In this document: in pieces, positions 19,214 through 56,785 of the stretch
Numbering within the stretch: position 1 is the first letter of the stretch
Layout of the letters: every line of letters begins with the position of its first letter
From: Terriglobia bacterium
GTDB taxonomy: Bacteria; Acidobacteriota; Terriglobia; Terriglobales; Acidobacteriaceae
NCBI GenBank assembly: GCA_020072815.1
Contig: JAIQGE010000001.1
Location: 682,001-746,000 of the forward strand
DNA: 64,000 bases
Reading direction: 5' to 3'
The notes under the pieces: generated by a model
The model's database searches: none
What the model saw: the letters and a program-made list of their open reading frames with translations, nothing else
Told to the model about the DNA's origin: nothing
Position numbers and translations under genes: made by a program

Positions 19214-21172
19214 ATGAATCCGCTCATGCCTGCCCCCACTTCCACACAGTCTCCACTCAGCTTGGATCGCTCGGCGGCGCCTGCGGGGAAGCGCCTGCGC
19301 TACATCGCGTTCATCGTGCTGGTCTGGGTGCTGGTGTACGCCGCCGCTCTCTTCCGGCCGCCCTTGATGGACGACGCGGACACCGTCCATGCTGAAGCTG
19401 CGCGCGAAATGGCCGCCACCGGCGACTGGGTCACGCTGCACATCAACGGCGGCGTCCGCTATCTGGAAAAAGCGCCGCTCATGTACTGGTGCGTGGCCGC
19501 CAGCTTCAAGTTGTTCGGTGTGAGCGAGTGGTCGGCGCGGCTGCCCATCGCCCTGGGGGTGCTGGCGCTGCTGCTGATCGTCTACCGCCTGGGCCGAAGA
19601 GTCTTTCATCAGGAAAACCAGGGCGAAGAAGCCGGGATGTATTCCGCGCTGGCGCTGGCGACAGGTTTTGGCCCGTTTATCTTCACCCGCATCCTCATTC
19701 CCGACATGATGGTCGGGCTGTGGCTGGCGATCGGCTTTGATTTCTTCCTGACCTCGATAGAACAGAGTGAGTCGGGGAAAAAGCCTTCGCTCTGGATTTG
19801 CTGGGGCATCGCCGCCACCATGGCGCTCAACGTCCTGACCAAAGGCCTGATCGGGCTGGTCTTCCCCATCGGTACAATTTTTCTTCTTCTGCTGCTCACG
19901 CGCAACCTGCGCCATCTGCTGAAGCTGCGCCTGTTCTCCAGCTTCCTGGTTTTTCTGCTGATCGCCGCGCCGTGGCATTTGCTGGCCGGATTCCGCAATC
20001 CCGCGCAAGGCCAGACCAAAGGCTTCTTCTGGTTCTACTTTGTCAACGAACATTTTCTGCGCTACTTGAACAAACGTTTCCCCGCCGACTATGACACTGT
20101 GCCTTTGTGGCTGTTCTGGGGGCTGATGCTGCTGTGGCTGATGCCCTGGACGGCGTTCATTGTGCAGGCGCTGCGGCAGGTACCCGCGAAAATTTCCGAA
20201 TTCCGCAATGGGCTGAGCGCGCAGCAACGCGGAACTCTGCTCTTCGCGCTGTGGGCACTGCTGGTCCTGCTGTTCTTCAGCTTCTCCAGCCGCCAGGAGT
20301 ATTACGTCATCCCCGGCGTGCCTGGGGTGGCGCTGCTGCTGGGCGGATGGTTGGCCCGCGAAGCCGCGTCGCCTGCGGACAGCCCGGAGCGGCGCAGCGG
20401 ACGAATTGCTTCGCTGGTGCTGGCGGCGATCGGCGTGGCGGCGTGCGTCGCATGCGCCTATCTGGCCTGGCAGGCGAAAACGCCGCCGCAGAACTACGAC
20501 ATCGCCGAGTTGCTCAAGAAGAATCCCCAGGAATACGCGCTGTCCTTCGGCCACTTCCTGGACCTCACGCCGCAAGCCATGGGCGCGTTCAAGATCCCGC
20601 TGATCGCCACGGGAATCGCCTTCGCGCTGGGGACGCTGCTGAGCCTGTGGCTGCGCCGCCGCAACCAGGCCTTCTACGCCAACGTGGCCCTGGCGCTGAT
20701 GATGGTGGTGCTGCTGCATGAAGCGCACCGCGGGCTGGAGATCTTCTCTCCGGTGCTGTCCTCAAAAGTCCTGGCGGACGCCATTGAATCGCGCTGGCAG
20801 CAGGGACAAAGCCCGGTGATCGAAGTCAACGGCGACTACGAAGCCGGGTCGAGCGTCAATTTCTATACGCATCGTCAGATTCGGATCTTGAATGGACGCT
20901 GCAACAACATCTGGTATGGCTCCACGTTTCCTGACGCGCCAAAGATCTTTGACGACAATTTGTCTTTCGCGAAGCTGTGGCACAGCGGGGATACGGTTTT
21001 TCTTTTGACGCAGGAAGACGCGAAGCCGGCGGCCGCCGTCAGTGATGCATGCCCGCAAAAAGAAACGCTGCCGGACTACGTTGATCGCAGTTGCGTGCTG
21101 GCCAAGTGGGGCGGCAAGGTGGTGCTTACCAATGAACCGAAACTTTGTCCGGCTTCGGCTCCGCAGCGCTGA
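19214..21172 (+). CDS. ArnT-like membrane glycosyltransferase (PMT/GT-C fold)
   Basis: 652 aa with about 11-12 hydrophobic segments. The first periplasmic loop carries MDDADTVHAEAAREMA and the YLEKAPLMYW motif, characteristic of dolichyl/undecaprenyl-phosphate-sugar transferases (ArnT, PMT_2). These move a sugar from a polyprenyl phosphate to lipid A or another envelope acceptor. The final part (about residues 520-640) is a soluble domain. The 3' end overlaps the convergent HpnI-like gene by 47 bases. A start at ATG 19226 is a possible alternative. Confidence 0.85.
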   Translation: MNPLMPAPTSTQSPLSLDRSAAPAGKRLRYIAFIVLVWVLVYAAALFRPPLMDDADTVHAEAAREMAATGDWVTLHINGGVRYLEKAPLMYWCVAASFKLFGVSEWSARLPIALGVLALLLIVYRLGRRVFHQENQGEEAGMYSALALATGFGPFIFTRILIPDMMVGLWLAIGFDFFLTSIEQSESGKKPSLWICWGIAATMALNVLTKGLIGLVFPIGTIFLLLLLTRNLRHLLKLRLFSSFLVFLLIAAPWHLLAGFRNPAQGQTKGFFWFYFVNEHFLRYLNKRFPADYDTVPLWLFWGLMLLWLMPWTAFIVQALRQVPAKISEFRNGLSAQQRGTLLFALWALLVLLFFSFSSRQEYYVIPGVPGVALLLGGWLAREAASPADSPERRSGRIASLVLAAIGVAACVACAYLAWQAKTPPQNYDIAELLKKNPQEYALSFGHFLDLTPQAMGAFKIPLIATGIAFALGTLLSLWLRRRNQAFYANVALALMMVVLLHEAHRGLEIFSPVLSSKVLADAIESRWQQGQSPVIEVNGDYEAGSSVNFYTHRQIRILNGRCNNIWYGSTFPDAPKIFDDNLSFAKLWHSGDTVFLLTQEDAKPAAAVSDACPQKETLPDYVDRSCVLAKWGGKVVLTNEPKLCPASAPQR

Positions 21173-23370: not shown

Positions 23371-23800
23371 TGATGCTGGACCGGATGGTCGCTGTCCTAC
23401 TGTGGACGCCAGAGTTTCTCTGGGCTGCGCAGGGGGAGAGAGGAAAGTCCGAACTCCGCAGAGCAGTGTGCCGGATAACGTCCGGGACGCCAGCTTTAAG
23501 GCTGGTAGACGGAAAGTGCCACAGAGAATATACCGCCTTTGGCGCAAGCCTCAGGTAAGGGTGAAAAGGTGCGGTAAGAGCGCACCGCCCGGGCAGTAAT
23601 GTCCGGGGCATGGCAAACCCCACACGGAGCAAGACCAAATAGGGAAGGAATGGGGATGGCGTAAGCTGTTCTCATGCGTGCCGGCTCGGTGCGCCCAACT
23701 TCCGGGTAGGTCGCTTGAGCCGTTCAGCGATGAACGGCCTAGAGGAATGACCGTCACGGCGGCAACGCCGTACAGAATTCGGCTTATAGGTCCAGCATCA
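23371..23800 (+). ncRNA. rnpB: RNase P RNA, bacterial class A
   Basis: Catalytic RNA of RNase P, which matures tRNA 5' ends. The 5' and 3' ends pair in a perfect 12-bp P1 helix (TGATGCTGGACC with GGTCCAGCATCA). The conserved core is present: GAGGAAAGTCCGAACTCC near the 5' end, the central GGTAAGAGCGCACCG and GGCAAACCCCAC segments, and GAGGAATGACCGTC followed by ACAGAATTCGGCTTATAGG near the 3' end. Length is about 430 nt, a little longer than the E. coli RNA. It is followed by an intrinsic terminator. Confidence 0.96.
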
Positions 23801-23805
23801 CTTGT

Positions 23806-56451: not shown

Positions 56452-56785
56452 AAGAGTGCCTGCTCAGTGGGCCTGCTTAAGTCCTGATTTTATGATGGAT
56501 CAAGTCCCGCAGCAAATCAGGGCGGAACCCCGTTTTTCGGTAGTGGGTTAGTTTGGTCCTTTTACCAGTTTTTCGTCTGGCAAGCGCATGTTCATCGCTA
56601 CCGCGATGAACGTCTGCTGATTCGCTTCGCTCACCCAGGACTAAAGTCCAGGGCTGGGGCCCGCGATTCACAAGTGAATCGCTAGACGCTGATACCGGTA
56701 GTGGATCAGGCCAAACTGACCCACTACCAGTTTTTCTCTCCCTTTGTATCGTAGAATGATCAAGTAAGGTTATAGGTTCAATCTC
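56452..56785. other. Structured intergenic element between coaD and methyltransferase
   Basis: No coding sequence. Within 56539-56735 there are several near-perfect hairpins: GTTCATCGC-TACC-GCGATGAAC (56590-56611), GGACT-AA-AGTCC (56638-56649), GCGATTCAC-AA-GTGAATCGC (56663-56682), and a 13-bp stem with one mismatch (56697-56728) followed by AGTTTTTC. The ends also form an inverted repeat, GGTAGTGGGTTAGTTTGG at 56539-56556 with CCAAACTGACCCACTACC at 56711-56728. It may be a small RNA, an attenuator or a MITE. Confidence 0.6.
56697..56735 (+). terminator. Terminator-like hairpin upstream of the methyltransferase gene
   Basis: Stem GGTAGTGGATCAG/CTGACCCACTACC with loop GCCAAA, followed by AGTTTTT on the plus strand. 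No plus-strand gene ends nearby, so it would act on an upstream RNA or as a leader terminator. Confidence 0.5.

Follow-up and report, generated by a model that had tools for sequence, protein, structure and literature searches.

A 190-bp folded element between coaD and a methyltransferase gene is a miniature transposon with IS1-type ends

In the window (the whole 64,000-nucleotide stretch of acidobacterial DNA that we analyzed), coaD and a divergent methyltransferase gene are separated by a gap in which hairpins closely follow one another. The initial annotation reported these hairpins and an 18-bp outer inverted repeat with one mismatch, all of which are present (Table 1). It also judged that chance would not produce such a density of structure, and folding bore this out: for positions 56530-56745, z was -9.1 for RNA and -7.2 for DNA, and in neither case was any of 200 dinucleotide-preserving shuffles as good. 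A sequence listed as occurring twice, TACCAGTTTTTC, does so at 56563 and 56725. One copy is internal and the other spans the junction between terminal repeat and target DNA, so that this direct repeat looks like a coincidence; in other long-form copies of the element the internal TACCAGTTTTTC reads TATCAGTTTTCG. The 190-bp stretch lacks a transposase gene and is too short to encode one, although a 107-aa ORF overlaps it. Our results reveal that it is a miniature inverted-repeat transposable element (MITE), a transposon without its own transposase, rather than an isolated regulator.

Table 1. Parts of the window copy of the MITE and its flanks (window coordinates)
Feature	Position	Strand	Evidence
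Left target-site duplication CGTTTTTC	56531..56538	.	8 bp, 7/8 identical to 56729-56736
MITE proper, 190 bp	56539..56728	+	Ends set by terminal repeats and flanking duplication; copies compared
Left terminal inverted repeat GGTAGTGGGTTAGTTTGG	56539..56556	+	17/18 complementary to right end; outer arms 56539-56556/56711-56728, 18 nt, 94%
Core hairpin 1, GTTCATCGC-TACC-GCGATGAAC	56590..56611	+	Helix 1 in 60 copies, double changes in 7/8 pairs; inner 9 bp (56590-56598/56603-56611) perfect within a 16-nt, 81% hairpin (56583-56598/56603-56618)
Core three-way junction: CGTCT (56611-56615) pairs with AGACG (56684-56688), enclosing two arms	56611..56688	+	Helix 2 (junction stem) of model R1; 92.2% of cells paired, double change in 1/5 pairs
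Long-arm variant with GGACTAAAGTCC palindrome, replacing the usual GCC-TAAA-GGC hairpin	56618..56659	+	Same variant in other copies; small GGACTAAAGTCC hairpin at 56638-56649
Core hairpin GCGATTCAC-AA-GTGAATCGC	56663..56682	+	9 bp, 100% (56663-56671/56674-56682); helix 4, double changes in 8/8 pairs
Terminal hairpin: right terminal repeat (56711-56728; CCAAACTGACCCACTACC ends at 56728) plus inverted partial copy of it (56697-56709)	56697..56728	+	56694-56709/56716-56731, 16 nt, 88%; helices 5 and 6, double changes in 15/15 pairs
Right target-site duplication AGTTTTTC (T-run reported in the initial annotation)	56729..56736	.	

A search for second copies in the source and related genomes, which the initial annotation had proposed, was successful. 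Querying the source genome (G000) with positions 56500-56760 returned 25 match segments. The strongest second copy, L002, covers positions 38-229 of the 261-position query at 70%. Sequence searches of 41 genomes gave matches in 10, namely all nine of the genus (the source included) and one outside it, G015, where the match was weak and to the long arm alone. With a covariance model (R1), copies were found in 8 of 61 genomes, all of one genus (eight of its nine genomes, the source included), while none of the candidates scored from 44 other genera matched. R1 counts are lower bounds resulting from strict filters and the scoring of 62 candidates per genome. Five of the nine genomes have from at least 7 to at least 19 matches each (G000, at least 16; G001, at least 17; G004, at least 19; G005, at least 9; G007, at least 7). 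There were at least three in G002, at least two in G006, at least one in G008 and, among the candidates scored, none in G003. A gapped pattern scan of a contig collection returned 12 stretches, from Candidatus Angelobacter sp. Gp1-AA117 and Acidobacteriaceae or Terriglobia MAGs. Since core identity was equal within genomes (0.698) and between genomes (0.697), with gap columns, long-arm inserts among them, scored as differences, there is no sign of species-specific bursts.

Eighty-seven loci entered the comparison, of which 66 had a recognizable right core, 49 were short-form and 35 had hairpin 1; 32 went into alignment A1. Three loci with odd hairpins (L007, L142, and L153) were left out of A1 by hand, which favors the terminal-repeat form in R1. 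The list of model matches from 65 loci includes weak antisense matches; in a second set, 60 of 60 matched. The family consensus begins with the left end, followed by a hairpin (TTCATCGC-NNNN-GCGATGAA). In the middle, a CGTCT/AGACG stem surrounds GCC-TAAA-GGC and GCGATTCGC-AA-GCGAATCGC, and is followed by CTGATAC. At the 3′ end, the right terminal repeat and an inverted copy of itself form the last hairpin. In the window copy, the left half is long and the GGACTAAAGTCC long arm takes the place of GCC-TAAA-GGC, a variant also present in L006, L109-L113, L127, L128, and L137. On its own, with no other part of the element, the long arm occurs in L149 and in L166, the latter from another genus. As a pattern, it matched only seven times in 31 genomes, all within the genus. 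We considered whether the long arm is a separate RAYT-linked palindrome and rejected this, as it had no match at the Y1 loci fetched. Its similarity to Acido-Lenti-1 RNA (RF01687) is weak (12.1 bits, E 3.2). A 36-bp element in the source genome (L078, G000:C15, near 19897-19932) consists of two abutting terminal repeats between flanks GGGGTGCG and GGGGTGTG (7/8) and looks like a minimal palindromic relative.

Duplicated flanks like those of the window copy accompany other copies. Both ends scored above our thresholds in 23 of 66 copies. Duplications of at least 7/8 flanked six of the 23, two of them being 8/8, compared to 0.4% of controls in which left and right flanks were taken from different copies. 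When each end was allowed a 1-base shift, 8 of 23 had such a duplication, compared to 1.4% of controls. The six found without a shift, namely the window copy, L115, L120, L126, L136, and L140, measure 131-190 bp. L118, which by eye has a perfect duplication, TGGTCTTT, is not among the six because automatic end-finding mis-set its left end. It counts against the MITE reading that no more than 23 of 66 copies passed our thresholds for both ends, and that several of the 23 look like chance matches lacking a duplication.

Gaps between the same neighbors are often empty. The methyltransferase gene is present in eight of nine genus genomes (the source included), and the element lies at one of these eight loci, that of the source genome. 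In G004, G005, and G006, coaD is beside the methyltransferase gene (synteny judged by eye) and the gap lacks the element. In the rpsI-rpsB gap, the element occurs in three of nine genomes, with one orientation in G004 and G007 and the opposite in G001. Upstream of trmFO, it occurs in G000 and G005, at two of seven testable loci, with L233 truncated by a contig end ahead of the site and L234 left out. Shared sites were rejected as proof of selection. L118 has a perfect duplication, so the gap that it has in common with L003 may have received two insertions; L128 is oriented opposite to L119 and L124; and L024 and L142 differ on their right side. Of the shared sites compared, two pairs, L119/L124 and L158/L162, have the look of a single old insertion, and no others do. 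Near 2060-2280 of L226 (the place of L024), about 26 bp of the trmFO start (GGCGCCGATGATC...) are imperfectly repeated beyond the element, a repeat far longer than the usual 8-bp duplication.

An end-pattern search of the source genome revealed a facing pair of ends at G000:C4:116666 and 118632, marking a 1984-bp insertion sequence (IS) (G000:C4:116665-118648; locus L077) with 17-bp ends (GGTAGTGGGCCAGTTTG) and a perfect 8-bp duplication (CGTTATCT). Its end, GGTAGTGGGCCAGTTTGG, differs from the left end of the window copy at 2 of 18 positions, and its ends are one base off the MITE family consensus. A 296-aa ORF within it scores 24.4 bits with Pfam DDE_Tnp_IS1 (cut-off 24.1) and 64 bits with the NCBIfam IS1 model, below the cut-off of 100. 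Relatives of this transposase occur in seven of nine genus genomes, its own included. At two further transposase loci, two ends are recognizable and are flanked by a perfect 8-bp duplication: L086 (GAAGAACA), where the transposase frame contains stops, and L094 (CAGGCAAG). Thus, 8-bp duplications are found at all three transposase loci with a good end on both sides. IS1 family elements duplicate 8-9 bp of target. The two bases that follow GGTAGTGG vary in the IS ends (GC, TG, CT, GT, and others), as they do in the MITE left ends (GT, TA, AA, TT). Judged from these sequences, the 1984-bp IS1-type IS is the likely mobilizer of the MITE.

The same IS carries a tRNA gene that ARAGORN reads as tRNA-Stop with anticodon tta (L077 2518-2607; Rfam tRNA, 54.7 bits), which is predicted to be of a kind that would read UAA stop codons. 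In a scan of 22 transposase-match loci, this gene was seen at no locus other than that of the same IS, and our literature search returned nothing on a passenger tRNA-Stop in an IS. Acido-Lenti-1 RNA (RF01687, 44.7 bits) matches L077 at 770-816, about 250 bp outside the IS.

We are highly confident that the window element belongs to a family of non-autonomous MITEs of IS1 type which occurs in numerous copies in these soil bacteria and, by the covariance model, is confined to one genus among the genomes searched. The initial annotation had named a MITE-like mobile element as one of its possibilities, and this is the one favored by the dispersed copies, the terminal repeats with 8-bp duplications, the near-matching IS, and the three empty syntenic gaps. 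While the anatomy can be read directly from the copies, we infer the action of the transposase. An IS1-type transposase encoded at another genomic locus would act in trans on the terminal repeats and insert the element with an 8-bp duplication, in this case between coaD and the methyltransferase gene. The internal hairpins would travel with the MITE as inherited parts. They might be kept because they aid its spread or make it more tolerable to its host; alternatively, one arm of a palindrome may serve as template for repairing the other.

Two other readings of the locus have to be weighed against a MITE. The initial annotation suggested a small RNA ending in an intrinsic terminator, or a leader attenuator for the methyltransferase gene, and the fold is indeed very stable. 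The T-run after the last hairpin is real, but it is not a terminator tail of the element, as it is target DNA that lies on both sides of it. A terminator is therefore not supported as a property of the element, although the T-run and last hairpin could terminate transcription by accident at this site. Our scans detected no promoter-like site and one terminator-like site (chance rate 0.6), which is not the terminal hairpin; that hairpin was not called, the scan allowing no mismatch and its stem having one. No Rfam family matched the element at gathering score, and only weak matches lay below it. (Elsewhere in the window, bacterial class A RNase P RNA occupies 23373-23802 on the + strand, with 297.4 bits.) Three relatives have the same gene pair without the element, and the orientation of copies relative to neighboring genes is not constant. 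A crude gene finder based on codon usage, some of whose zero distances are reading frames running into the element, classed 50 of 76 copies as lying between co-directional (35), divergent (11), or convergent (4) gene pairs; in the 35 co-directional cases, the genes ran along the element in 14 and against it in 21 (p 0.31). This mixed orientation speaks against one shared RNA function. We consider the small RNA or attenuator very improbable, and at the window site the element may have no effect on coaD or the methyltransferase gene. A REP/BIME-like repeat mobilized by a RAYT (Y1) transposase would fit the nine Y1_Tnp matches in the source genome and the GTAG with which the base of the terminal hairpin is marked. 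However, the element was absent from all eight Y1 loci fetched (examined within 1.5 kb where the contig allowed), several copies have lost GTAG while keeping the hairpin, and the element shares its 8-bp duplications and terminal repeats with an IS1-type IS. We hold this reading to be extremely unlikely. The nine Y1_Tnp matches (e.g., L009-L016) represent a sizeable RAYT-like set in their own right.

We determined how well the structure is maintained among copies, a check in homologues that the initial annotation had called for. Among the outcomes that it said would leave an incidental repeat were the lack of a second copy and the lack of covariation, and on both points our results were the opposite. 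In 60 aligned copies, 92.1% of cells pair, compared to 82.8% after shuffling. Double changes occurred in 32 of 39 modeled pairs (shuffled mean 14.4; slid 14-17), and the covariation score was 0.260, compared to 0.099 for shuffled and at most 0.076 for slid alignments. These values come from an alignment (A3) that was fitted to the structure. Unfitted RNAalifold on A1 (32 copies) gave 15 pairs, six of them with double changes, and did not recover the terminal hairpin or the junction stem. Double changes were concentrated in the simple hairpins (helices 1, 4, 5, and 6), where they affected 30 of 31 pairs, compared to two of eight in helix 2 (the junction stem, 1/5) and helix 3 (the small GCC/GGC hairpin, 1/3) together. 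In the short form, about 40 nt separate the arms of the junction stem. Helices 2 and 3 vary little.

The three-way-junction core also outlasts the left terminal repeat, and the hairpin that follows it changes in sequence while mostly retaining its pairing. Mean core identity to consensus was 0.939 in 16 copies with the left end, 0.928 in 20 copies with hairpin 1 but not the left end, and 0.888 in 21 copies with neither. Of the 66 copies, these classes include the 57 that had at least 36 of 50 core positions, and the copies were collected by core similarity; both choices favor persistence. No separation of the classes was seen in rank tests (p 0.32, 0.18). There is a weak correlation between core identity and end score (rho 0.32, p 0.014), which would be expected if copies decay with age. 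After CTGATAC, a stem of at least 9 bp is present in 53 of 66 copies, compared to none of 66 downstream controls and none of 66 shuffles. Such a stem is found in 10 of 14 copies whose terminal repeat is unrecognizable (at most 11/17), some of which look like diverged terminal repeats. Ordinary MITE decay does not predict a core kept nearly as well without a recognizable left end, nor the right-hand stem in those 10 copies, with the caveat for both points that core similarity was the basis of collection. A possible but doubtful reading is that the conserved unit is the structured core and not the ends, that is, a genus-specific folded RNA or DNA motif carried by IS1-type ends that persists and covaries after the ends are lost.

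Selection or palindrome-templated mutation could explain the covariation. If the core (hairpin 1, three-way junction, and terminal hairpin) were a functional RNA or DNA under host selection, with the IS1-type ends only its vehicle, the double changes, the covariation score, the persistence of the core without a left end, and the retained terminal stem would all be expected. So would the orthologous rpsI-rpsB copies of G004 and G007, whose cores differ at three positions and whose terminal hairpins retain 12 of 13 pairs despite changes at 14 of 31 positions. Against this, the rpsB leader itself may be what maintains that hairpin, collection by core similarity over-represents conserved cores, the unfitted fold recovered far less than A3, sites are mostly unshared (as in the rpsI-rpsB gaps and trmFO regions), and orientation to neighboring genes is mixed. 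Host selection of the core is, in our estimate, unlikely. The alternative is that template switching during replication improves quasi-palindromes, such that both arms change together in the absence of selection. This would account for the contrast between the simple hairpins and helices 2 and 3, although the latter vary so little that they offer few chances for double changes. It would also fit L128, where the final codons of rpsI and its stop lie in one hairpin arm, to which the second arm is matched. Template switching does not explain the conserved unpaired and junction sequence (CGTCTGCC, CTGATAC). We give a mutational origin of the covariation close to an even chance, and the helix pattern leans to palindrome-templated correction over selection.

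The nearest described kinds of element that we found are MITEAba12, the bcr elements, and GTAG/CGTC-tagged REPs. Searches of the literature on IS1 MITEs, Acidobacteria intergenic repeats, Angelobacter repeats, bcr1-like repeats, and structured MITEs returned no title or abstract describing the window family, subscription papers being mostly outside their reach. In the accessible part of their description, insertion sequences whose nearest relative is the IS1 family member ISAba3 have ends GGTGGTGTTTC... and bound an insert with 8-bp duplications; MITEAba12 copies are 111-114 bp, with only weak predicted secondary structure (PMC6382973). Like the IS1 family as described there, the window family has ends that start with GGT and 8-bp target duplications, and the candidate mobilizer encodes a transposase that passes Pfam DDE_Tnp_IS1. 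Unlike that family, the window element lacks a transposase and the candidate transposase falls below the NCBIfam IS1 cut-off. As far as the same source describes it, MITEAba12 resembles the window MITE in being short, having ends in common with a co-resident IS, and showing duplications in part of its copies, but the window MITE differs in its covarying multi-hairpin core, variable length, and right end doubled into a hairpin.

The bcr elements of the Bacillus cereus group are, like the window MITE, intergenic repeat families of one bacterial group. According to the portion available of the report on them, bcr1-bcr3 are MITE-like while bcr10 and bcr18 have conserved secondary structure (PMC3446304). 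In the window family, known here from its sequence, both properties occur together. GTAG/CGTC-tagged REPs, in the consulted excerpt, are 20-40 bp long with an unpaired tag (PMC3733652). They resemble the window MITE as palindromic intergenic repeats, and both GTAG and CGTC occur in the element. However, compared with REPs as that excerpt presents them, GTAG and CGTC are base-paired in our model, copies with good duplications are several times longer, and the eight Y1 loci fetched showed no link to Y1 genes.

Thus, what was a puzzling structured gap becomes a defined mobile family with a likely mobilizer, and the terminator or attenuator lead is explained away. If the covariation is selective, a transposon would be spreading a folded element through a genus. 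If it is mutational, the family would be a natural data set in which palindrome-templated repair imitates the covariation signal used for calling structured RNAs.

At some sites the hairpin 3′ of the core involves host sequence. In L142, the core directly abuts a palindrome, both arms of which are coding sequence for the C terminus of an acetyltransferase (family assigned by Pfam only, on the G000 homologue) that aligns by eye with G004, G001, and G002 proteins whose genes lack the element there. On the doubtful reading of the core as the conserved unit, a hairpin of whatever sequence on its 3′ side might be something that the core requires or is attracted to. In L150, the hairpin lies inside a predicted open frame. 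In the rpsI-rpsB gap (L217-L225), a leader-like stretch before rpsB (TTCCCTCCCGC...CGGGAG...) is conserved in all nine genus genomes. By eye, a GGTCC...GGACC-type stem mostly precedes this stretch in gaps without the element, and in G004 and G007 the element's hairpin occupies the place of that stem.
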